The notes under the pieces are model-generated. The model searched no databases. It was not told the origin of the DNA and saw nothing but the letters and a program-made list of their open reading frames with translations. Shown here in pieces: positions 7,262-43,919 of a stretch of 64,000 bases of DNA. Both the position numbers and the translations under genes were made by a program. The stretch comes from Bacteriovoracaceae bacterium (GTDB lineage Bacteria; Bdellovibrionota; Bacteriovoracia; Bacteriovoracales; Bacteriovoracaceae): the NCBI GenBank assembly GCA_947377285.1, contig CANCFT010000002.1, forward strand, positions 1 through 64,000. The letters are read 5' to 3'. Each line of letters starts with the position of its first letter. The first letter of the stretch is position 1.

Positions 7262-7993
7262 CTAAGGAGAAATTTTTAAATCAGAATTTATTAAAGATAA
7301 TTCAATATACCTATGCCTAACAGAGTTGAAATTCATTAATCGAATTTCTTCTTCAGGTGCCCACTTAGACCGCTTAAACATACCTGACAAAATAAAAACA
7401 TCTTTCAATATTGATATAAATAAATCATTTAAAAAAAGTTGCTTAAAATCGAAAGTGCTCCAGAATGAATCATTTTTTATTATATAATCCTGATACCCAT
7501 TAAATATTTTTTCAACTTTTTGGAGAAAAAGAAATTCATCATATATTACTTCAACTAGTAACGGCTGGTTAGTAATATCCAGGATCGAAAAAATTGATTC
7601 AAGATATTTTCTCCTAGAGCATGAATAATTATCAAGTAAATGTTGATTATTCGATCTTGAACAAAAGCATCCAATATAGAGATGCATACCTGGATATGTA
7701 ACTTCTTTATTAAGAAATTTATGAAAATTAGAATATAAGCCCGCAGTCAACTCATTATTTCTAATACAATCCCTCAACACTGAAATTACAAGTTTCATAC
7801 CATAAAGAAGTTCATTATGATCATTTGTATTTCTGTAGTGAGACATTCTAAATTTTTTTGTCTCCAAAATATTTTGAGCCGATTTGAGTTTCGTGTAATG
7901 ATACAGTGGCTTATTATTTGGAATAATCAATGATTCTGTAAATTGTCGTTGGCATTCTTCTTCAAGTCGAGATTTTTTATAATTGTCAGTCAT
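7262..7993 (-). CDS. DUF2971-family protein
   Basis: 243 residues. PLYHYTKLKSAQNILETKKF and RMSHYRNTNDHNELLYGM match the DUF2971 opening pattern (YHYT...IL...L..S....NDP.E). Later LYIGCFCSRSNNQHLLDNYS corresponds to the family's CFS....LLWAHYA region. The biochemical role is unknown. Members are often found in mobile elements and defence islands, and the fold has been suggested to be ADP-ribosyltransferase-like, which I cannot confirm. It is convergent with the secreted-protein gene and lies 34 bases after the gene that ends at 8028. Its position among Abi genes makes a defence or toxin role plausible. Confidence 0.6.
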   Translation of the reverse strand: MTDNYKKSRLEEECQRQFTESLIIPNNKPLYHYTKLKSAQNILETKKFRMSHYRNTNDHNELLYGMKLVISVLRDCIRNNELTAGLYSNFHKFLNKEVTYPGMHLYIGCFCSRSNNQHLLDNYSCSRRKYLESIFSILDITNQPLLVEVIYDEFLFLQKVEKIFNGYQDYIIKNDSFWSTFDFKQLFLNDLFISILKDVFILSGMFKRSKWAPEEEIRLMNFNSVRHRYIELSLINSDLKISP

Positions 7994-8027
7994 AGATAAC
8001 CTTTTATTTTTAATTATGACTGGATAA

Positions 8028-8570
8028 TTATTTATTGAACCAGTTTAGAAACTTCTCTACTGTATGAAAATTTTGATAATAAAAAATCAAAAATCCACAG
8101 ATAATCGCACCAATAAACATTCCAAGTGCTCTTTCAATTATGATTTCTTTTTTCTTTAACTCGACCTTTGTCTGAGCAAAGCCATCGTTAATTGCGTTCA
8201 TTAAAACAATCGGATCAGTAGATGAAAAATCCACTTTAACCTGCTCACCTTTATTATTTTTCAGCATACGAAGATAATTGGCCCCATCGGAATTAGACTG
8301 AGACATATAGCGATTTAAAAGATCCAATTGGTTGGTCATGGTTAATATTTCAATTGCTTCATCAAGAGTTGCCCCACGAGGCTTAGAGGTATCTAAAATA
8401 CGGCCAAAAGTTGAAGTGCTTATAGTAGGAAGCCTTTCTCCTGAAGCCTGAATAGTTCTTGAACTAGGACGTTCAGCTGACCACTTATTGAAAGACTCAA
8501 TAACAATGTCTTTTAAAAGCTTTTCTTCTTTAGACATTTCAGCTGATTTTTTTGATTCGTTTTCGCTCAT
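8028..8570 (-). CDS. Tail-anchored protein of unknown function
   Basis: 180 residues, not recognised. The N-terminal two thirds are soluble and helical (EEKLLKDIVIESFNKWSAER, STSTFGRILDTSKPRGATLD). A single transmembrane segment near the C terminus (ALGMFIGAIICGFLIFYY) leaves a short tail, so it is probably anchored in the inner membrane with its bulk in the cytoplasm. The start at 8570 is chosen because GGAAGG lies 6 bases upstream. An in-frame ATG at 8633 has no ribosome site. It is divergent from the coupling ATPase gene and could be its membrane adaptor, since that ATPase lacks clear membrane helices. That is inference. Confidence 0.6.
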   Translation of the reverse strand: MSENESKKSAEMSKEEKLLKDIVIESFNKWSAERPSSRTIQASGERLPTISTSTFGRILDTSKPRGATLDEAIEILTMTNQLDLLNRYMSQSNSDGANYLRMLKNNKGEQVKVDFSSTDPIVLMNAINDGFAQTKVELKKKEIIIERALGMFIGAIICGFLIFYYQNFHTVEKFLNWFNK

Positions 8571-8693
8571 AAAAGCCTTCCTAAAATAATTTCCAAGGAT
8601 TTTCTTCATAAAACAAAAAAACTGTTTTTGCAATGAGTTGCAATCTTTTGGGCTTATGTTCTTGAAAATCTGTCGTCAAATTGGTTTCCAAAA

Positions 8694-8742
8694 TGATTTT
8701 CAGTTTGAAAATCACCTTGATTGGCAAAGATAGCCAATCAAG
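8694..8742. promoter_or_regulatory. Two adjacent palindromes in the divergent control region
   Basis: TGATTTTC/GAAAATCA (8694-8701 and 8707-8714) is followed two bases later by CTTGATTGGC/GCCAATCAAG (8716-8725 and 8733-8742). Both are perfect. They lie between the tail-anchored gene and the coupling ATPase gene, so they may be operators controlling both directions or part of a transfer origin. Confidence 0.6.
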
Positions 8743-8824
8743 TGAAACGTTATTGAAAGAGATTAAAAAAAGTTTTTAAGTAGCTGTGATCGGAAATAAC
8801 TCCGACAATAACAAAGGATTTTTG

Positions 8825-10303
8825 ATGTTCAATACGGAAACCAAAAAGAAAAATTCGCCAGAGGGGTTAGATTTAGTAACCCCAATCGTCGAGATCTTTA
8901 CTGATCTCATCAATGGTCTCATTCATCTCTTGGGACTTGGAATTCAGTACGGTATTGACCAATACAAAGCGAGAAAAGCTCTTGTTCGTACAATTGAAGA
9001 AAAAGAATTGAAATCTACTAAATCATCAACATCCTCACAAGATTTAGGTTTTTCAATTTCAAGGAAAAAACCGATTCCACTATCTGGAATTGATTTTTCA
9101 AAACATTCAGCAATCTTTGGAGCTGCTGGATTTGGAAAAACCAATCTGATTTCCGTCCTTCAAGAAAATTCTCTCCAACAAAATAGGCCTATTATTTTCT
9201 TTGATCCAAAAGGTGATCTTGAAGCATTACTTTCATTTAAGGCCCTTTGTGAAAAATATCAAAAGAAGTGTTTGATATTTTCTGAACATTACCAAGATTC
9301 GATTAATTTAAATCCTCTTAAAAATGGATCAGTAAATCAAATTGTCGATCGGTTCATGTCATCCTTTGAATGGACAGAGCCCTTTTATAAAGACATTTGC
9401 CAAGATGTTTTAATGAAATCAGTCAGAGATTTATATAATCAAGATAAGGCCATTAGCATTGGTAATATCATTGAAATTTATGAATCAAAATATCTAACGG
9501 ATAAGACACTTGGACTTTTGTTAAAACTTAAAAATATTCATACATCAGATTTTGGTAAAATTTTAGAAGACGACGGCAATGCTTTAACTTTTGAAGATAT
9601 TCGAGATCAAAAAGTCTGTTTATATATTGGACTTTCAACGCAAGGATATGGCGAAACAGCGATGGCCCTCGGGAAAATATTTTTAGGTGAACTACTTTAT
9701 AGTTCATACTATCAATTAATTAATTCTCCGATGTCTTCAACATCAATCGCTAATCCTATTTCAGTTTTCTTTGATGAATTTGGTGCATTGGTCACTCCTC
9801 GATTTATTGAACTACAAAATAAATGTCGTGGAGCTGGCATTCAGCTTTTTTTAGCTGTTCAAGGTGTCGCGGACATTGACCGAGTTGATCCTAATCTCAC
9901 AAGTCAGATTATTGAAAATTCTGCCAACCTATTTATTCTCAAACAACGAGTCGATAGTGGAGCTTCATTACTAGCTAACGCTATCGGAACTACTAAGAGC
10001 AAAAAACAAACTTACAAAACAGAACGAGGACATCGTCAAGAGGCCGGATCAGAACGCGAAGTAAACGAACACATTTGTCACCCAGACATCATTAAAAATT
10101 TAAGAGTCGGGCAATGTGTTTTACTTCGTCACAATCCGACCATGATTGACTTAATTAACATAAGGGAGAGAGGTCATGAACAAAACAAAGTAGTAGTTAT
10201 CCACAAACCGAGAGCGTCAGCTCCAAAAAAGTTTGATCATAATCAGACGATGGTTCCCATTAAGAGAAATACAGTCATTGGAGGTTCTATTGGTCGCCGT
10301 TAA
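8825..10303 (+). CDS. VirD4/TraG-like type IV coupling ATPase
   Basis: 492-residue P-loop ATPase of the VirD4/TraG/TraD group, which bring DNA-protein complexes to a conjugation channel. Visible motifs are Walker A in IFGAAGFGKTNLISVL, the group's FFDPKGDLEAL strand, Walker B in ISVFFDEFGALV, the Q of FLAVQGVADIDRV, and the C-terminal NSANLFILKQ / GATTKSKKQT region typical of TraD-C. The N terminus has only a weak hydrophobic stretch (IFTDLINGLIHLLGLGIQYG), so it may be soluble or peripheral. The start is taken as ATG 8825 with AAAGGA 6 bases upstream. A GTG at 8786 is in frame but without a clear ribosome site. It overlaps the Replic_Relax gene. No other conjugation gene is present in the element. 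Confidence 0.85.
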   Translation: MFNTETKKKNSPEGLDLVTPIVEIFTDLINGLIHLLGLGIQYGIDQYKARKALVRTIEEKELKSTKSSTSSQDLGFSISRKKPIPLSGIDFSKHSAIFGAAGFGKTNLISVLQENSLQQNRPIIFFDPKGDLEALLSFKALCEKYQKKCLIFSEHYQDSINLNPLKNGSVNQIVDRFMSSFEWTEPFYKDICQDVLMKSVRDLYNQDKAISIGNIIEIYESKYLTDKTLGLLLKLKNIHTSDFGKILEDDGNALTFEDIRDQKVCLYIGLSTQGYGETAMALGKIFLGELLYSSYYQLINSPMSSTSIANPISVFFDEFGALVTPRFIELQNKCRGAGIQLFLAVQGVADIDRVDPNLTSQIIENSANLFILKQRVDSGASLLANAIGTTKSKKQTYKTERGHRQEAGSEREVNEHICHPDIIKNLRVGQCVLLRHNPTMIDLINIRERGHEQNKVVVIHKPRASAPKKFDHNQTMVPIKRNTVIGGSIGRR

Positions 10304-35325: not shown

Positions 35326-35709
35326 TTAACCGATTTTAGTCAAATGAGATTTCACCAAAAGAGAAGCTTCTTCGAAATCAAAAGGTTTAAAAATAATGGC
35401 CCGCGGCTTGAAGCGATTTAATTCTTCAAGAGGGTAATCGTGATAACCAGTGATAAAGAAAAATGGAGTTGTATCACCATGCAATTTAAGATCACTGATA
35501 AATTCAACACCGGACATACCTGGCATTGCAATATCAGTAATTATACAATCAACTTTTGTTTTTGCTAAAAAGTGCAGTGCCTCCTTAGCATTACCAGCTG
35601 AAAACACAGTAAAGTGAAGTTCTGTTAGGCTTTCTCTAAAGAGCTCAATTATTCCCGAATCATCATCAACGATAAGTATAGATAATAATGTTTTAGAGTT
35701 TAAGGCCAT
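35326..35709 (-). CDS. Single-domain response regulator
   Basis: 127 residues, a receiver domain without output. ILIVDDDSGI has the acidic pocket, CIITDIAMPGMSG the phosphorylated Asp, FFITGYHDYP the Thr, and IIFKPFDF the Lys-Pro. All key residues are present. Like CheY-type regulators it must act through protein contact. No kinase gene is adjacent. The nearest kinase gene in the window is at 60781-62448. Confidence 0.9.
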   Translation of the reverse strand: MALNSKTLLSILIVDDDSGIIELFRESLTELHFTVFSAGNAKEALHFLAKTKVDCIITDIAMPGMSGVEFISDLKLHGDTTPFFFITGYHDYPLEELNRFKPRAIIFKPFDFEEASLLVKSHLTKIG

Positions 35710-35823
35710 GAAATTATTGTAACTATTTCTAAATTTTTTGCAAGTTAAAAGCAGTTGGTTGACTACTCAAACTTTTATAGTTAAGATAGAACAAATATCT
35801 AACAATTAAACAAAGTGTGCTTT

Positions 35824-37782
35824 ATGCGTAAATTAAATCTCTTAGCTGCCATCATTTTCACTCTTACTCTCAATATATCTCATGCTCAAACAAACGATAC
35901 GAATCCACGCTTTGCCATCCATCTACTCGATTATTTGGCGCACGATTATAGTGGTGCCGTTGTTCACGGGAAAGTAGCTTCTGAAAGTGAATATGCTGAA
36001 CAAAAAGAATTTGTGACAAAAGTTTTTGAACTTACAAATGCAAATCCAACTATTGCCAGCAATAAATCGACATCTGAAAAAATAAGCAAACTCAAAAAAA
36101 TGATTGAATCAAAAGCTGAAGCGGTTGATGTGGCTTTGTTGGCCCGAGATATTCAAAAAGATTTAATAACAATCACCCAAATTAAACTTTCTCCACTCAA
36201 TCAGCCATCTATTACAAATGGTAAAAATCTTTTTCAACAAAACTGTATCGCTTGTCATGGCCAAAATGGTTTAGGAGATGGACCTGATGGAGCTAAACTC
36301 GACCCAAAACCGGCCAATTTTCATTCTAAAGATCGCATGAGTTCAATTTCTGCATTTCATTCTTTTAATACAATTCGATTAGGCGTTCCGGGCACAGGAA
36401 TGCCGGCCTTTGGTGACTTATCCGATAGAGATGTTTGGGATTTATCTTTTTATGTAATGTCCTTACGTCATCAAACATTTCTCTCAACTCTAAAAACTAT
36501 ACCTGCTAATCAACTCAATTTCTCACTTGAAGAAATGGCCACTCTTTCAGACACTGAACTTAAAGAAAAAATAGCAGAAAAAATAACTGATAAAAAAACT
36601 GATCAAGATGAGCAAAATAAAAATATTGCACTCGCTCTTCTAAGAACTAAAAATGATGACACTTCTAGTGGACAATATATTGGAATCGCAAAATCATTAT
36701 TAACAAAATCTCTGGTCTCATTTAAATCAAATAATAAGGATGAAGCTAAACGATTTGCTCTTCAAGCTTACCTTGAAGGAATAGAGCCGATTGAGCCAAT
36801 GATCAAAGCCAATAATCCGCAACTAGTTGTTCAAATTGAAAAAGAAATGGGCAAAATTAGACAGATCATTTCTTCAGGCAACGATACAACTCCAGAAACT
36901 ATAGAAAAATTAGCGGCGCAAATCATTATCACTCAAAACGTTTTTTCTGAAGTATTAGAATCCGTTCAATCACAAGAATTAAGTCCGAGTGTCGCCTTCT
37001 CAGGAGCTTTTGCTATCATCTTGCGGGAAGGATTTGAAGCTGTGCTTATTATCCTTACACTTTTAAGTGTCATCAAAGCTTTTGGAAATAAACAAGCAGC
37101 TTTTTGGGTTCATGCAGGCTGGAGCTCCGCTTTAACTCTGGGCTTTGTAGCATGGTTTTTATCGGGTTTTCTAATGAAACTGAGTGGAGCAGGTCGAGAA
37201 ATGCTTGAGGCCATTACATCAAGTTTTGCCGTTGTCGTTTTGCTCTATTTTGGATTTTGGCTTCACCGTCAAACTGAAATCTCTCGATGGAAACAATTTA
37301 TTCAAGAAAAAGTACAAGGAGCTATCGATAATAAAAACTTATTTGGACTCTTTTCAATCGCTTTCATTTCTGTTTTCAGAGAAGCTTTTGAAACAGTTCT
37401 ATTTATACGGGCTTTATGGTTTCAATCAAATGGTGATGGAAAAAATGCCATTGGTATGGGATTAATCGCGGCCCTTGGACTTATCTTTATGTTTTCTTTT
37501 GTGGCCTTACGCTATTCAAAAAAACTACCAATTCGAGAACTATTTAAAGTGTCTTCATTTTTAACAAGTGCCCTTGCTTTTATTTTAGCTGGTAAGGCAG
37601 TTCACTCTCTTCAAGAAGCAGGAGTACTCAGTTCAACAGGACTTCCTTGGAACCTTCGCTTTGACACCATTGGATTATTTCCAACATGGCAAACTGTCAC
37701 TGCTCAATTTGCCACTTTGGCATTCGCTATTTTACTGTTGAATTTAAACTCAAATAAAAAACCAGTAGTAGTTGTGGGGTAA
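35824..37782 (+). CDS. FTR1-family iron permease with periplasmic cytochrome c domain
   Basis: 652 residues. A signal peptide (MRKLNLLAAIIFTLTLNISHAQ) is followed by a helical domain, then a cytochrome c domain with CIACH (residues 141-145), GLGDGPDGAKLDPKPANF and a distal Met in GMPAFGDL. From about residue 385 an FTR1 permease follows with two iron-binding REGFEAVLI and REAFETVLF motifs in separate membrane helices, and six to seven helices in all. Iron oxidation by the haem part, coupled to Fe(III) uptake, is the accepted idea for such fusions. The start is ATG 35824. A GTG three codons earlier is possible. Confidence 0.88.
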   Translation: MRKLNLLAAIIFTLTLNISHAQTNDTNPRFAIHLLDYLAHDYSGAVVHGKVASESEYAEQKEFVTKVFELTNANPTIASNKSTSEKISKLKKMIESKAEAVDVALLARDIQKDLITITQIKLSPLNQPSITNGKNLFQQNCIACHGQNGLGDGPDGAKLDPKPANFHSKDRMSSISAFHSFNTIRLGVPGTGMPAFGDLSDRDVWDLSFYVMSLRHQTFLSTLKTIPANQLNFSLEEMATLSDTELKEKIAEKITDKKTDQDEQNKNIALALLRTKNDDTSSGQYIGIAKSLLTKSLVSFKSNNKDEAKRFALQAYLEGIEPIEPMIKANNPQLVVQIEKEMGKIRQIISSGNDTTPETIEKLAAQIIITQNVFSEVLESVQSQELSPSVAFSGAFAIILREGFEAVLIILTLLSVIKAFGNKQAAFWVHAGWSSALTLGFVAWFLSGFLMKLSGAGREMLEAITSSFAVVVLLYFGFWLHRQTEISRWKQFIQEKVQGAIDNKNLFGLFSIAFISVFREAFETVLFIRALWFQSNGDGKNAIGMGLIAALGLIFMFSFVALRYSKKLPIRELFKVSSFLTSALAFILAGKAVHSLQEAGVLSSTGLPWNLRFDTIGLFPTWQTVTAQFATLAFAILLLNLNSNKKPVVVVG

Positions 37783-37786
37783 GAAA

Positions 37787-39946
37787 CTAGTTCATTTTAA
37801 AAAAAGATTTTATCATTTCCATACAAGATTGTTTTGCACCACGACCAGCTATTTTAACCATGTCGATTTTGCTTAATGGATAATTATATTTTCGGTCTAC
37901 AATTGAATGAACTAGATTCTTTGAAGCACTCTTAAGGACAATATCCTTAAACATAGTAGTTTCGCCGATGGCCTCTGGTAATTGTTTTAAGAGTATTGAC
38001 CCTCTTGCAAAAGCCCCTAATTTATCAGAGACAAAATAATTTTTTTGTACACACCAGGCAATCCATTCTTCTGCTTCTCTATTGGGATTCTTTTTAAGTT
38101 CGGCATTTATTTCTTTTATTAAATTATTTTTAAAAGAGGAATCTTTTGAATTCATTGAAGCTAAAAGCCCATCGGCAATAGTTTCTGAAGATTTAAGTTG
38201 AGCACCAGCACCTATTAGCAGGAAAGCTCTTTGATCTTCTTTGGTTAAAGTAGATGAAAGTCCAAAATCATATAATAAAATTTTTATTTTACTAGAATCT
38301 TCAAGCAGCACAATTCTAAAATTTCCTTGATGAAGATCTGCATTTAAAAATCCACTTTTAAATAGTGCTTCTTCAAACCACATCCGCAACATTTCTTCTG
38401 CTACAATTTTTTGAGCTTTTGAATCTGTCAGTTCAGAAAACTTAACCCCTCCAGTAGCAAACTCTTGAACATGTAAATTTGATTTTCCATTTGGTGGAAA
38501 ATAAACTTTTGGTACTTTCATTTCTAGCATCGAAAATTTTGTATGATTTGAGACTTTAACTGTACGACTATACGCTAGATCACCTTGATTTTGACGTTCT
38601 ACTGCTTTTTCTAAATCAACTTCATCATTTAAAAAAACTTCCACACTATCAATGAGAGTGCTCATTACTTTTAAGTCTTCAAATCCTTGAGCTATAAGTA
38701 ATTGTTCATTATCAGGTACAAATTTTCGCAGAATAATAATATCTTCTTTACAACGGTCTACTATTCCAGGTTTTGGCAAACGAAGTGCTATGACAGTTTC
38801 AACATTATTTTCAACCATAACAGCTCTATTGACTTGGGCAATAGTCCCCGTCCCTAAGGGCTTTTCTGTAATTGATTTTATTTCAAAACCACCTTGATCT
38901 TTTGATACAACATCTCGAACTAAGTGAATTGGAACTTCTTTTCCGGTAGATTCTAAAACACTCATTATTTTTGAAAAAGAATCCCCTACTCCTTTTTGTT
39001 TTCCAATTTGCTGCAGGACTTTTCCAAGTCCAGGACCAGTATTTTGAAAGACAATTGTTAGAACTCCTTCTTGAGTAAGTTTCGGTCCTGCCGTTACTAA
39101 TTCTGACATGATCGTTTTAATGACATCGGACTGAAGGTGATTAAAATAATAATCCATAAATTTCACAATGAGCTTCATCTGAGAATTGCTCATATCAACT
39201 TGACCAGATTTTGCTATTTCAGATCCAATATGACGAATTGATAATTCATGTTTTTTAAGTTTAGACTCTACTATTGAGAATACTTTTAAGATTTTTTCAT
39301 CATCATTGCCATCAAATTCAATGATATTTTCAATCTCTGAAAATGAAGGATGTAAATCAAACTCAGTTCCTAAAATTTTTCCGATGGCATTTTGATAATT
39401 TTGGGCAATAACAGTCTTTTTTTCGACATTTAATTTTTTAAATACTGGGGCAATAACTTTTAAGCCATCGAGAAGATCAAGTTTAATTTTAGGATTTGGA
39501 AAACTACTTATTTCTAAATTGAGATAATTTAGCTCCTCTTTAAGAGTCCAGATGGGTGCACTTTTAATTGGAATAATTGTGCCTGTGCCATTTTTTTCAG
39601 TTCTAATATTATTCATTAATACTGGATAAATTCTATTAAAATAAAGGGTCGCACTATTAAATACTTTAATCTTATATTCATCACTACTTTCAGTTGCTTC
39701 AATTAAATATTTTAAGAGATTTTCTTGAACAACTTTTATTTCAGATCTACGTTCACTACTTAATTCTGATTCAATTAATAATTTTAATTCATCTAACACT
39801 AAATCTGTTGGTGAATTAGCAACGGCCCTTGATCCATCTTCTTTATTATTTACCTGAACAACTAAAGCAGGAGGAGTAGAACAAGAGGTTGCTACTAAAA
39901 TTAAGGCCGCTAATAATACAATGAGGGTATTAAGTTTCTTTATCAT
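37787..39946 (-). CDS. Lipoprotein with ABC1/UbiB (ADCK) kinase-like domain
   Basis: 719 residues. The N terminus LNTLIVLLAALILVATSCST is a lipoprotein signal (lipobox ATSC), so the mature protein should sit outside the cytoplasm. From about residue 330 it follows the ABC1 plan: GPGLGKVLQQIGKQKG (KxGQ-like), PLGTGTIAQVNRAVM (canonical AAAS loop changed), ALRLPKPGIVDR (beta-3 Lys of AVKVQRPG replaced by Arg), LNADLHQGNFRIVLL (catalytic Asp) and LLYDFGLSS (metal DFG). The substitutions point to altered or lost kinase activity. It is last in a five-gene minus-strand cluster of envelope proteins. An exported kinase fold is highly unusual, as ATP is scarce there. Confidence 0.8.
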   Translation of the reverse strand: MIKKLNTLIVLLAALILVATSCSTPPALVVQVNNKEDGSRAVANSPTDLVLDELKLLIESELSSERRSEIKVVQENLLKYLIEATESSDEYKIKVFNSATLYFNRIYPVLMNNIRTEKNGTGTIIPIKSAPIWTLKEELNYLNLEISSFPNPKIKLDLLDGLKVIAPVFKKLNVEKKTVIAQNYQNAIGKILGTEFDLHPSFSEIENIIEFDGNDDEKILKVFSIVESKLKKHELSIRHIGSEIAKSGQVDMSNSQMKLIVKFMDYYFNHLQSDVIKTIMSELVTAGPKLTQEGVLTIVFQNTGPGLGKVLQQIGKQKGVGDSFSKIMSVLESTGKEVPIHLVRDVVSKDQGGFEIKSITEKPLGTGTIAQVNRAVMVENNVETVIALRLPKPGIVDRCKEDIIILRKFVPDNEQLLIAQGFEDLKVMSTLIDSVEVFLNDEVDLEKAVERQNQGDLAYSRTVKVSNHTKFSMLEMKVPKVYFPPNGKSNLHVQEFATGGVKFSELTDSKAQKIVAEEMLRMWFEEALFKSGFLNADLHQGNFRIVLLEDSSKIKILLYDFGLSSTLTKEDQRAFLLIGAGAQLKSSETIADGLLASMNSKDSSFKNNLIKEINAELKKNPNREAEEWIAWCVQKNYFVSDKLGAFARGSILLKQLPEAIGETTMFKDIVLKSASKNLVHSIVDRKYNYPLSKIDMVKIAGRGAKQSCMEMIKSFFKMN

Positions 39947-39961
39947 GTGAAACTTATCGGA

Positions 39962-41545
39962 TTAATTTTTTCTCACATTAACAAGTTGTGGATTTTCTTG
40001 AGCAATAACAGTGATGTCACCAAGACTCAATTTTTCGTTAAGTTCAGATGACATTTCAAGATGATAAATACCAGGATTGAGTTCAATATCAACTAGTCTT
40101 ATTTCATTTGGTAAAGTTGACCAAAATCGTGTGTCCGCTTTTTCAGATTCTTCAATTAATTTAGCCGCTCCTATATATTGAATTAACGCTGCATTTTTCG
40201 CCAAGAAATTATTCTCACCATTTCGACCTCCTCCAAGCGCTTTGTAAGTCGCAAATGAAGCAGCAATAGCTGTCGCATGCTTAGCGGCCAAACGAAATCC
40301 TACTCGCCCATAAGTCCAAGCAGAACTCTCAAATACGGCCTCCTCTGCAATTTCTCCCATTGGGTTTATTAAAGGTATGTCTTTTGATAAGACAACTTTA
40401 TTATCTTTATCAAGTACAGTTAGTTTATATTTTTGAATAGGCTGATTGTTAACGATTTTCGGCAATTCAAATCCGACTCCTACTGATTTTAAAGTTGTAT
40501 TGGCGACAGCGATTCCAAGAAATGCTCCACCAGGATTAAAAGAATTGGGTGATGGAAGCAAACCTAAAATTTGAGCCGCATATAGAGAAAGGATTGGATC
40601 TTTTGATAAAAACTCTAGTCCATAAAAACTTTTTTCAGCAATTTTTTGAGAAATCATTCCTTTTTCGAGAATAAGAGTTACTTGGGTTTTATCCTCTTTT
40701 CCAACTTTTTTAGAATTTTTAGTAAGCCTAGAAATATTTTGCGCTAAGAAATCTTGAATCGCTTTTTGATGATCAGTTTCAGCAACATATTTTTTTTTCA
40801 TTTCGTTTAAATTAAGGCTTGAAAGTTTTTCAAAGTCTTTTTTAAAATCTTGAAAATGTAAATTAAACGAAGGATAGGTATTATAATTTTTAAGAATAAC
40901 GTCTAAGGCATCTTTATAAAGCTGAAGTGCAATTTGTTTATCTTCACGTGTACCCACCATTTCATGAATTTTGGCCCCATAAATTTTAAGCAATAAATCA
41001 TTTTTATATATGCTTTTGCCGAGACGATCCTCTTTAATCGAATTTAAAAAACTATCCCATCCTAAAACTTCAGCGCGGGCCTTAAACAAATCTGCGCGAT
41101 TGCCACTTTTTTGATATTGGAGAATTGCATTGAGTGAAAGATAGAAGTTAATCATCGATCTCTCATAAATTTCACCATAAAAAATATCGAAATTATCATT
41201 AAATAATGTTTTTTCTAGTTTCTTTGAAACACTAGTTGTAAAAAGCTCGGCAGAGAGAGTTCGTGCATCATTAAGAAGTAACGAAGATTTCTCAAAATCA
41301 CCTTTAGCGTGAAACAACATCCCCTCTTCCATTAATTTGAGAAGTCGCTCATTTTTATCTTGGTAATATTTAGATTTTTCAATGTATTGAAGACCAGCAT
41401 CGTAGGAGCCAGTTAAATAAAAGTTACGAAGTTCGTTGCGGTCATTAATTCCACCACTCGAACATGAAGTAAGTACAATTGCTGAGAGCAAAATTAAGAT
41501 TTGCCCCCAGCACTGATTTAATTTTAACTTTTTAATTGGTTTCAC
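39962..41545 (-). CDS. COG3014-like lipoprotein with TPR-like repeats
   Basis: 527 residues. A lipoprotein signal (ILILLSAIVLTSCSSGG) precedes helical repeats (RNFYLTGSYDAGLQYIEKSK, FHAKGDFEKSSLLLNDARTL, FDIFYGEIYERSMINFYLSL) like those in COG3014 proteins, which in other bacteria are encoded with LpoB-like lipoproteins. A beta-rich C-terminal half follows (KLTVLDKDNKVVLSKDIPL, YHLEMSSELNEKLSLGDITV). It probably sits in the outer membrane as a scaffold of an envelope complex. It is 7 bases from the LpoB-like gene and 15 bases from the kinase-like gene, so it is cotranscribed. Confidence 0.75.
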   Translation of the reverse strand: MKPIKKLKLNQCWGQILILLSAIVLTSCSSGGINDRNELRNFYLTGSYDAGLQYIEKSKYYQDKNERLLKLMEEGMLFHAKGDFEKSSLLLNDARTLSAELFTTSVSKKLEKTLFNDNFDIFYGEIYERSMINFYLSLNAILQYQKSGNRADLFKARAEVLGWDSFLNSIKEDRLGKSIYKNDLLLKIYGAKIHEMVGTREDKQIALQLYKDALDVILKNYNTYPSFNLHFQDFKKDFEKLSSLNLNEMKKKYVAETDHQKAIQDFLAQNISRLTKNSKKVGKEDKTQVTLILEKGMISQKIAEKSFYGLEFLSKDPILSLYAAQILGLLPSPNSFNPGGAFLGIAVANTTLKSVGVGFELPKIVNNQPIQKYKLTVLDKDNKVVLSKDIPLINPMGEIAEEAVFESSAWTYGRVGFRLAAKHATAIAASFATYKALGGGRNGENNFLAKNAALIQYIGAAKLIEESEKADTRFWSTLPNEIRLVDIELNPGIYHLEMSSELNEKLSLGDITVIAQENPQLVNVRKN

Positions 41546-41552
41546 CTAAGAA

Positions 41553-42167
41553 TTACCAACCCATCTTTTTTTGTTCTGAATATTTTGATAATTTTGTCCG
41601 AGTTCTAAATATCTCTATCCCTTTTTCAATATCTGTAATACGTAAATTTACTGAATATTGCTTAATGGTTTTTCCATCACGTGTTTCGGGTTTCATATAA
41701 ACGTTACCAAAAATCATTAAGTCTGCGCCCGTTTGTTTCCCAACTTTCTTAGCAGTTTTAGGATCAACCATTCCATCATTTTGGTATGTAATTTCTTTTA
41801 ATAATGAACTTCTTGCTTCTGCATCAACAAGTACGAAGTCACCTTGTTTTGAAATTTCATTTAATAGTTCATCGTTAATATCATTAATGGGAAAATACGC
41901 TTCAGCTGTTAAATTTTGAACTTCTCCAACAAACATTTTTAACTGCTTGCCGTGCTCCATCATGTATCGTTTAAGTCCTTTGTGTTCTCCCATTTCTTTC
42001 ATGGCATCGACGATAACTTTTTCTGTATCTGCTTGAACCCATTGATCAGTAATACTAAGTGCTTTTTCGTCAGAAGTTTTATTATCAACTCTTTCTGCTT
42101 TAAACGAACTACAACTTGCTAGTGTTACAAGACTTATCGAAAAAAATATAACTTTTAATAAATGCAT
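41553..42167 (-). CDS. LpoB-like lipoprotein (penicillin-binding protein activator family)
   Basis: 204 residues. The lipobox is LASC in FFSISLVTLASCSSF. The mature part follows the LpoB family: MFVGEVQNLTAEAYFPINDI, DFVLVDAEARSSLLKEITYQ, AKKVGKQTGADLMIFGNVY and YSVNLRITDIEKGIEIF. E. coli LpoB stimulates PBP1b from the outer membrane. Here the family match is good but the partner is not proven. The gene lies between a Lpp20-type and a COG3014 gene, a known neighbourhood. Confidence 0.82.
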   Translation of the reverse strand: MHLLKVIFFSISLVTLASCSSFKAERVDNKTSDEKALSITDQWVQADTEKVIVDAMKEMGEHKGLKRYMMEHGKQLKMFVGEVQNLTAEAYFPINDINDELLNEISKQGDFVLVDAEARSSLLKEITYQNDGMVDPKTAKKVGKQTGADLMIFGNVYMKPETRDGKTIKQYSVNLRITDIEKGIEIFRTRTKLSKYSEQKKMGW

Positions 42168-42214
42168 TATTATCTCCTTGATTTAAAAATCATTTTCATT
42201 TGTTTAATTAGTAA

Positions 42215-42916
42215 TTAAATTTCACCCTGACGAGATTTAATGAAATTTTCAGATACATTTTTAAGTGCTTTTTTAACACTTTCTTTTGCTTCTGGATCTT
42301 CGACTTTTTTAGCTACAAAATTAGCAGCTTCATCAACAGACTTTTTGAGGCGATCAGCTTCCATGCGGATAAGAACTGAACAAGTAAATGCTTTAAAATC
42401 TTCTTTGGCACCTAAGCTTTTTTTATATTCTCTTTGTTCCCAATATGTTTTAACAACGGCCGCTCCATGAATCATGGATTGGATTTTTTCGGCCATGGTA
42501 TTTTCCATATATTCTTTAAGAGGTGAAAGCTTAGGGTTATTTAAATCAATTGAGGCATTACCTTCTTGAGTTGTCCCAAGTGTTTTTTCAATAAAAGTCG
42601 TAATTTCACTTGCAATATCGACTCGAGTATTGGCCTTGGCAATATCACATGCAACGGCACGAGTAACCTTTGGCTCTGTTTCATATGAAAAAAATCTATT
42701 TTTATCTAAGTCTTTTTCATTTTGTTTGGCCCAAACTTCAGCATCTTCAATCCATCCAGGTCTAAAATTTGAACTTGCATCTTTGACTTCATATTCTTTT
42801 TTGATTTCAGTGTGTTTAACGTCATCAACAGGCCGTTCAACAACCTCTACTTTTTTAGGAGTACTTGAACAAGCAGCAAGACCAAGGAGAAAGATCATAG
42901 GTAGAATTTTTTTCAT
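42215..42916 (-). CDS. LPP20-like lipoprotein
   Basis: 233 residues. The signal KKILPMIFLLGLAACSSTP is a lipobox type (LAAC). The mature part has PGWIEDAEVWAKQNEKD, ARVDIASEITTFIEKTL-like helices and a late conserved CSVLIRMEADRLKKSVDEAA, matching the LPP20 layout where a helix-rich domain ends in a strand with R-x-E. The role is unknown. Members cluster with LpoB and COG3014 genes. GGAT lies before the ATG. It is 47 bases upstream of the LpoB-like gene. Confidence 0.65.
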   Translation of the reverse strand: MKKILPMIFLLGLAACSSTPKKVEVVERPVDDVKHTEIKKEYEVKDASSNFRPGWIEDAEVWAKQNEKDLDKNRFFSYETEPKVTRAVACDIAKANTRVDIASEITTFIEKTLGTTQEGNASIDLNNPKLSPLKEYMENTMAEKIQSMIHGAAVVKTYWEQREYKKSLGAKEDFKAFTCSVLIRMEADRLKKSVDEAANFVAKKVEDPEAKESVKKALKNVSENFIKSRQGEI

Positions 42917-42944
42917 AAAACATCCTTTTAAAATGGGCGTACAA

Positions 42945-43919
42945 TTATTCTTCTAATTTACTATTGGAAAGTTGACTTAAATTATCTCTTACAGTTTCAA
43001 AAATTTCAGGAAGTGCTTTTTCAATCGCTTGCCCACTCGTCCGCGCCACTTGTTCACTTAGAGCGCTCGTTTTTCCTAAAACAATATTTGATTTATTAAC
43101 CAATTCTAGTTTTAATTGAACGTTTATTTTTTTAAAGCCATCTACTTTAAAATACTGCTCTTCAGTAGTCAAAATTGGGTTTAAAATATATTGTGGTTTT
43201 TGTTTTTTAGAAACTATATTTATTTTTAATGGCGCCAATGTATCCAATAAAAAATTATTAAGTCTATTTGAAACTTTTACGTTAGTGACACCTATTAATA
43301 TTTTTAGTACTTTCAATTTACTAATTTTGTCTAGAACGAGATCTTTAGTTACACGAGGATAATAATCGATCTGTGAGAGCAGTAGATACCGTTCTTTTAA
43401 GAACTCTATATTAGTCCAGTTATTTAAAATTTTAGGATAAGTAAACCGAGAATTTAAATTAAGTAATTGGATATTTTCACCATCGAGAATTTCCATTTTA
43501 TCTTTTAACAATTTTGCTGTTTTATTTCGATCAAGTGACAGTAACACATAAAAATGATCATTCATCTGCTCTTGCTTTTTAATTTCTAATCCAGTGATGA
43601 CTTCATTAGATTCTTCACCTATAGACTTTTGCGTCCATTCATCAATCGAAGCATTTGATGCAATCGATCCTTTTTGCTCTGTTGAATTTGATATTATCGT
43701 TTTTGATTTAATTTTATTTTGAAAATATTTAGATACTTCTGAGCGAGCACCCGTTAATGCTTCATTAAGAGTTTCACCTTCTCCTACAGTACATAAACTT
43801 TCCTTCGCACAACCTGGAAAATTACTTACATAGTCTGAGTACCAAGCAGGTGCAATGGCATAAGCATTCATACCTATTGAACTCAAAATGAAGAGGGCGA
43901 AGTACTGTAAAATTTTCAT
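42945..43919 (-). CDS. Secreted LPP20-like protein
   Basis: 324 residues. The signal peptide FALFILSSIGMNAYA is cut before IAPAWYSDYVSNFPGC; there is no lipobox. LCTVGEGETLNEALTGARSE and ITGLEIKKQEQMNDHFYVLL followed by SLDRNKTAKLLKDK follow the LPP20 pattern (GxGxs..eA...A, then yvLl.ldr). The second half (KLKVLKILIGVTNVKVSN, YILNPILTTEEQYFKVDG) is a beta-rich domain. It is the first gene of the five-gene envelope cluster, 28 bases before the next. Confidence 0.65.
   Translation of the reverse strand: MKILQYFALFILSSIGMNAYAIAPAWYSDYVSNFPGCAKESLCTVGEGETLNEALTGARSEVSKYFQNKIKSKTIISNSTEQKGSIASNASIDEWTQKSIGEESNEVITGLEIKKQEQMNDHFYVLLSLDRNKTAKLLKDKMEILDGENIQLLNLNSRFTYPKILNNWTNIEFLKERYLLLSQIDYYPRVTKDLVLDKISKLKVLKILIGVTNVKVSNRLNNFLLDTLAPLKINIVSKKQKPQYILNPILTTEEQYFKVDGFKKINVQLKLELVNKSNIVLGKTSALSEQVARTSGQAIEKALPEIFETVRDNLSQLSNSKLEE

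Follow-up and report, generated by a model that had tools for sequence, protein, structure and literature searches.

We have analysed a 64,000-nucleotide stretch of a Bacteriovoracaceae genome (assembly GCA_947377285.1, contig CANCFT010000002.1, positions 1 to 64,000; hereafter the window), in which the gene at 37787..39946 on the minus strand encodes a predicted exported lipoprotein with an ABC1 domain. The stop-free reading frame has one in-frame ATG start and encodes 719 aa, the stop codon being included in the coordinates. Residues 1-21 (MIKKLNTLIVLLAALILVATS; 39884..39946, minus strand) form a type II signal peptide, which is kept in the orthologues and has two Lys residues in the n-region and a charge-free core with a mean hydrophobicity of 3.48. 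Cys22 (39881..39883, minus strand), the predicted lipidated N-terminus, closes the lipobox LVATSC and is followed by Ser. All signal and lipobox assignments in this study come from a rule-based scan. When the window protein was aligned with seven Bacteriovorax orthologues of 59-69% identity to it, residues 1-24 showed a mean pairwise identity of 0.40, and over the first 39 residues of the eight sequences no position other than Met1, Cys22 and Ser23 was invariant. Considering that these three residues alone are held constant in so variable a segment, the lipobox is not a chance match. A further Bacteriovorax orthologue (L041) has a signal identical in kind, and the start, the lipobox and Cys22 are kept in nine intact same-genus sequences having a lipobox, namely the window protein and eight orthologues. 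In another same-genus orthologue (L042), a type I-like signal is found instead of the lipobox. The most divergent same-genus orthologue (L043; G010, 7833-9735 region) has a lipobox N-terminus together with an in-frame premature TAA, and represents a pseudogene or an assembly error.

A preliminary description of the window had predicted export from the lipobox, and had named a true start downstream of it as a possible objection. The ATG and Cys22 conserved among the Bacteriovorax orthologues speak against such a later start, and an N-terminal signal is found in nearly all family members across the phylum. Export of the 719-aa protein, as a bacterial lipoprotein with a signal peptide and a conserved lipobox Cys, is thus a strongly supported prediction. 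In E. coli, lipoproteins are sorted by the residue after the lipobox Cys, and Ser directs them to the outer membrane. Because the +2 residue of the window protein is Ser and not Asp, the protein most likely sits on the periplasmic face of the outer membrane.

Between the signal and the ABC1 domain lies an N-terminal domain (residues 45-250; 39197..39814, minus strand), which is predicted to be mostly helical and is conserved within the genus (mean identity 0.61 over residues 61-250). A Pfam scan of residues 45-250 gave zero families above the cut-off. AlphaFold2 models from the eight-sequence alignment, which was too shallow, were unusable for judging the pocket; the pLDDT was 44.8 for the full protein, in which the N-terminal domain appeared as helices of low confidence, and 34.6 for the ABC1 domain alone.

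The ABC1 gene lies 15 bases downstream of a co-directional run of four lipoprotein genes (39962-43919, minus strand). These encode an LPP20 protein (PF02169), a 233-aa lipoprotein without a Pfam match, an LpoB-like lipoprotein (PF13036, 4e-21) and a COG3014-like lipoprotein of 527 aa without a Pfam match, the last being the immediate neighbour of the ABC1 gene. On the plus strand, 35815-37782 encodes a 655-aa protein with a signal-like N-terminus, in which a cytochrome c domain is fused to an FTR1 iron permease.

Pocket residues of the ABC1 domain

The ABC1 domain core (residues 357-576; 38219..38878, minus strand) matched PF03109 at 69.7 bits (cut-off 22.9; E-value 2.7e-19), and the same family was above its Pfam cut-off in 10/10 diverse family members scanned. 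The UbiB equivalog model TIGR01982 gave 69.3 bits, far below its cut-off of 487.55. The motif order given in the preliminary description (PLGTGTIAQV, ALRLPKPGI, NADLHQGN and DFG) is present as stated. A phmmer search of the PDB with the single protein gave no match, and a search with the family profile gave the mycobacterial ABC1 protein 5YJZ as the best match (E 4.5e-10). Unlike the window protein, which has an Arg and a Gly-rich loop at the corresponding sites, 5YJZ has the canonical beta-3 Lys (VAVKIQYPG) and no Gly-rich loop (PVASASIGQV).

The pocket residues were placed on human COQ8A (4PED) by a HMMER profile alignment, with the numbering of the 255-647 construct verified at K276 and K358. 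In this alignment, R389 corresponds to K358, A448 to E411, and G365-T366-G367-T368 to A337-A338-A339-S340. Accordingly, Arg389 (38780..38782, minus strand) takes the place of the beta-3 Lys, in agreement with the preliminary description. A misalignment at this site was rejected, because the distance from R389 to the conserved Pro that follows it, exactly four residues, is that of the Lys in UbiB and COQ8A, and because HMMER itself pairs R389 with K358. The partner of the Lys is also changed, which had been missed before: in the segment at 38603..38623 (minus strand), the ExD motif E442-V-D444 is retained and Ala448 replaces the alpha-C Glu. The counterpart of the UbiB KxGQ motif reads GPGLGKVLQQ, with KVLQ at residues 309-312 (39011..39022, minus strand); the KxGQ likeness noted earlier therefore holds for K309 and Q312, and fails at the Gly, which is Leu. 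The Gly-rich loop GTGTIAQ (residues 365-371; 38834..38854, minus strand) stands in place of the Ala-rich loop. This earlier observation is borne out on COQ8A, but its first Gly is not special to the exported protein, since a first-position Gly also occurs in ordinary cytoplasmic ABC1 proteins of the phylum, as in the GTAS of a paralogue (L002) in the same genome. The catalytic loop DLHQGN (D537, N542; 38321..38338, minus strand) and the DFG motif (D560-F561-G562; 38261..38269, minus strand) are intact.

On the one hand, the window protein resembles the UbiB/COQ8 type (ADCK3; PF03109, TIGR01982) in its homologous ABC1 domain, its catalytic Asp, metal Asn and DFG Asp, the ExD Glu, the Lys and Gln of KxxQ, and a conserved C-lobe Arg (R648). 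On the other hand, it differs from that type in the beta-3 Arg and alpha-C Ala in place of the Lys-Glu pair, in GTGT instead of the Ala-rich loop, and in KxLQ rather than KxGQ. It is also distinguished by its export signal, by a separate N-terminal domain of about 250 residues, and by having no C-terminal transmembrane helices, which are present in E. coli UbiB and in several cytoplasmic paralogues.

Exported relatives across Bdellovibrionota

The preliminary description had suggested a search for lipobox-bearing ABC1 proteins in other Bdellovibrionota, and this search was productive. A profile built from 12 relatives found at least 69 loci at 115 bits or more in at least 66 of 369 Bdellovibrionota genomes; these counts were made by hand and are lower bounds, as at most three candidates were scored per genome, and some matches under 115 bits are likewise exported family members. 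Members from Bacteriovorax and several other genera have lipoboxes, and those from Bdellovibrio have a type I-like signal. In 62/65 exported-type members, the hydrophobic core near a start codon scores 2.05 or more, whereas canonical ABC1 proteins do not exceed 1.45. Of the other three, L043 and L048 have broken reading frames and L095 is cut off at the contig start. After the signal, a hydrophobic segment of transmembrane strength is almost absent from the exported members (two borderline cases). The 3.45-Mb genome that holds the window also encodes two ordinary ABC1 proteins that lack export signals, and a search of plasmids gave four weak, ordinary-looking ABC1 matches. In the open-licence literature, we found no published description of exported bacterial ABC1 proteins.

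Family members occur in genomes that we take to be those of Bdellovibrio bacteriovorus HD100 and Tiberius, the orthologue in the former being 695 aa long. The genomes presumed to be Halobacteriovorax marinus SJ and B. exovorus JSS each gave one cytoplasmic-type ABC1 match and no exported one; therefore, the exported gene does not seem to be required for predation. Action inside prey cells, which had been raised as a possible role, is unsupported considering this absence and the lack of any secretion-system context, and the idea of a prey effector was dropped for want of supporting genomic context.

For comparison of the pocket residues, the exported sequences were aligned with E. coli UbiB and 16 other canonical proteins, COQ8A being treated in its separate profile alignment. 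All 17 canonical proteins have KxGQ, the beta-3 Lys and the alpha-C Glu. The exported sequences fall into two types. The K-type (9 sequences) has KxFQ or KxLQ and retains the Lys and the Glu. The R-type clade (55 sequences, 53 of them with Arg, or 53/64 of the exported sequences) has a KxLQ-like motif, Thr, Ala, Ser or Gly at the alpha-C Glu position, and a loop that is mostly GxGT in place of AAAS. The Gly of KxGQ is replaced in 64/64 exported sequences and kept in 17/17 canonical ones. Considering that the third loop position, which corresponds to COQ8A A339, is Gly in 53/55 proteins of the R-type clade, this position rather than the first carries the distinctive loop change. The beta-3 and alpha-C residues change together: the pair is Lys with Glu in 26 sequences, Arg with Thr, Ala, Ser or Gly in 53, Lys with Ser in one (L115) and Gly with Lys in one (L099). 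The last two (L115 in G212, L099 in G181) lie inside the R-type clade, and are possibly reversions or further remodelling.

In all 64 exported sequences, the catalytic Asp, the metal Asn and the Asp and Gly of DFG are unchanged, as is the Gln of KxxQ, while the rest of the domain diverges; the first ExD position is Glu or Asp in every exported member. In the non-redundant R-type set, 11 of the 353 scored core positions are at least 95% conserved, and seven of these (D537, H539, G541, N542, D560, G562 and Q312) belong to the catalytic, metal-site or KxGQ-motif residues. The joint loss of the Lys and the Glu, set beside a metal site that ranks with the best-conserved columns, speaks against a pseudokinase in decay.

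In a maximum-likelihood tree of 81 sequences over 344 columns, all 64 exported sequences form one clade apart from the cytoplasmic ABC1 proteins, with a bootstrap of 100. The K-type clade had a bootstrap of 99, and the R-type clade was weaker at 65. The simplest history would be one origin of export followed by one switch of the Lys-Glu pair; because of the weak R-type node, the switch as a second step is likely rather than demonstrated. The exported K-type proteins (L048-L050, L101, L104, L105, L107, L113, L114 and L117) include one that is cut short (L117) and one that is N-terminally broken (L048). With their canonical Lys and Glu, proteins of this type could be ATP-competent despite their export signals.

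Possible function in the envelope

The ABC1/UbiB proteins are of ancient origin, and what they do remains under debate, with proposals centring on ATPase-driven lipid extraction. We consider, with a probability of roughly 45%, that the exported ABC1 protein makes no ordinary use of ATP and binds a metal-phosphate ligand in the envelope, this ligand probably being a lipid or isoprenoid headgroup. The protein would be synthesized with its signal peptide and lipidated at Cys22, and its body of about 700 residues would be kept outside the cytoplasm in the envelope. In its pocket, an Arg and a small residue stand in place of the Lys-Glu pair that positions the ATP phosphates. The residues for metal binding and catalysis (D537, N542 and D560) are retained, together with K309, Q312 and ExD, which belong to the UbiB-type lid. 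Such a pocket could still take a metal together with a ligand bearing a phosphate or pyrophosphate. ATP being presumably absent from the compartment, this ligand would most probably be a lipid or isoprenoid headgroup, which may be bound, extracted or passed on in the periplasm. Lipid or quinone handling is suggested by analogy with COQ8 and Cqd1, since the roles of COQ8 and Cqd1/Cqd2 touch CoQ and lipid distribution. The joint loss of the beta-3 Lys and the alpha-C Glu in the R-type also fits the earlier view that nucleotide use is lost or changed.

The preliminary description had described the known ABC1 proteins as facing compartments that contain ATP. Yeast Cqd1 and Cqd2, of the UbiB family, face the mitochondrial intermembrane space and affect CoQ distribution and lipid homeostasis (PMC8346625, PMC10214851). 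Accordingly, the statement has to be qualified: Cqd1 is an ABC1 protein that faces away from the matrix, although the space it faces does hold ATP. By topology, this space corresponds to the periplasm, and the precedent counts in favour of the metal-phosphate ligand. Unlike the window protein, Cqd1 and Cqd2 are anchored in the inner membrane by a transmembrane helix, and their function needs the usual kinase and UbiB-motif residues.

An alternative, which we consider unlikely, is that the kinase fold serves as a protein-binding module only, in a catalytically dead scaffold or an envelope membrane tether. The Lys and the Glu are gone and the periplasm is expected to be without ATP, as this alternative would have it. 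A tether would also have a likeness in Cqd1, which forms contacts between the inner and outer membranes (PMC10214851). However, a mere scaffold would allow the catalytic Asp, metal Asn and DFG Asp to drift, and their invariance across deep divergence in 64/64 exported sequences weakens the exported pseudokinase scaffold that had been put forward before.

Those intact residues would also suit a true extracytoplasmic phosphotransferase, with lipid pyrophosphate, polyphosphate or nucleotides from lysed prey rather than cytoplasmic ATP as the donor. In protein kinases, exchange of the beta-3 Lys for Arg usually cripples phosphotransfer. The family, moreover, also occurs outside the known predators, and the genomes presumed to be those of two of them lack it, so we regard this enzyme as quite unlikely. 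It is retained since a Gly at the A339 position fits an enzyme with an unusual donor over a dead scaffold, and the GTGT loop resembles that of protein kinases. In COQ8A, the A339G substitution favours ATP and permits autophosphorylation (review PMC4718504), and the third-position Gly reproduces this substitution. Thus, part of the remodelling would point towards ATP use and not away from it, which also counts against the metal-phosphate ligand reading. CotH of Bacillus subtilis belongs to a different kinase-like family and, unlike the window protein, has demonstrated protein kinase activity. It phosphorylates the spore-coat protein CotB, and so provides a parallel of a kinase-fold protein that serves a coat lying outside the spore core (PMC7821199).

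A tentative and somewhat improbable proposal concerns the whole family. The exported proteins would be an extracytoplasmic, phylum-wide ABC1/UbiB branch that catalyses or controls non-nucleotide phospho-ligand chemistry, with an Arg/Thr pocket and an intact metal site in an ATP-free compartment. An exported family in which the ATP-positioning pair is swapped and the metal and catalytic residues are kept is a natural separation-of-function experiment, and it could reveal what the ABC1 fold does without ATP. In predatory bacteria, it may also expose a traffic of lipids or quinones within the envelope. As an orthologue is found in the genome taken to be that of HD100, the question looks genetically testable in a laboratory strain. 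Taken together, the observations in the preliminary description are confirmed, and its interpretation is partly supported.

Genomic neighbourhood and remaining alternatives

In the window and at L034-L037, the ABC1 gene lies directly 3' of the four lipoprotein genes, which share its strand, and the 233-aa lipoprotein is 84-89% identical in L034-L037. This arrangement would suit a subunit of an LPP20/LpoB-like/COG3014 complex in peptidoglycan synthesis or the envelope. We consider such a role very improbable, because the block is absent beside the orthologues at L038, L039 and L041, and the more distant exported members have no such neighbours; outside the genus, no neighbouring gene recurs widely. 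On account of these three loci, the LPP20, LpoB and COG3014 proteins were rejected as obligate partners. That the protein is cytoplasmic and its signal a mis-annotated start or a false positive, which would agree with the known action of bacterial UbiB proteins at the cytoplasmic face, is scarcely credible given the single ATG, the conserved lipobox and the family-wide signals in frame with the conserved N-terminal domain.

No lipid- or quinone-related neighbour conserved across genera was found, which counts against the proposed lipid or isoprenoid ligand. Among the Bacteriovorax relatives, gain or loss beside the ABC1 gene has affected the four-gene run as a unit. A stand-alone response-regulator receiver domain of 127 aa is encoded at 35326-35709 (minus strand) in the window, and in almost every locus inspected within the genus this gene lies adjacent to, or one gene off, the one for the exported ABC1 protein. 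Glutaredoxin-2-like and MFS genes accompany the receiver gene at these loci.
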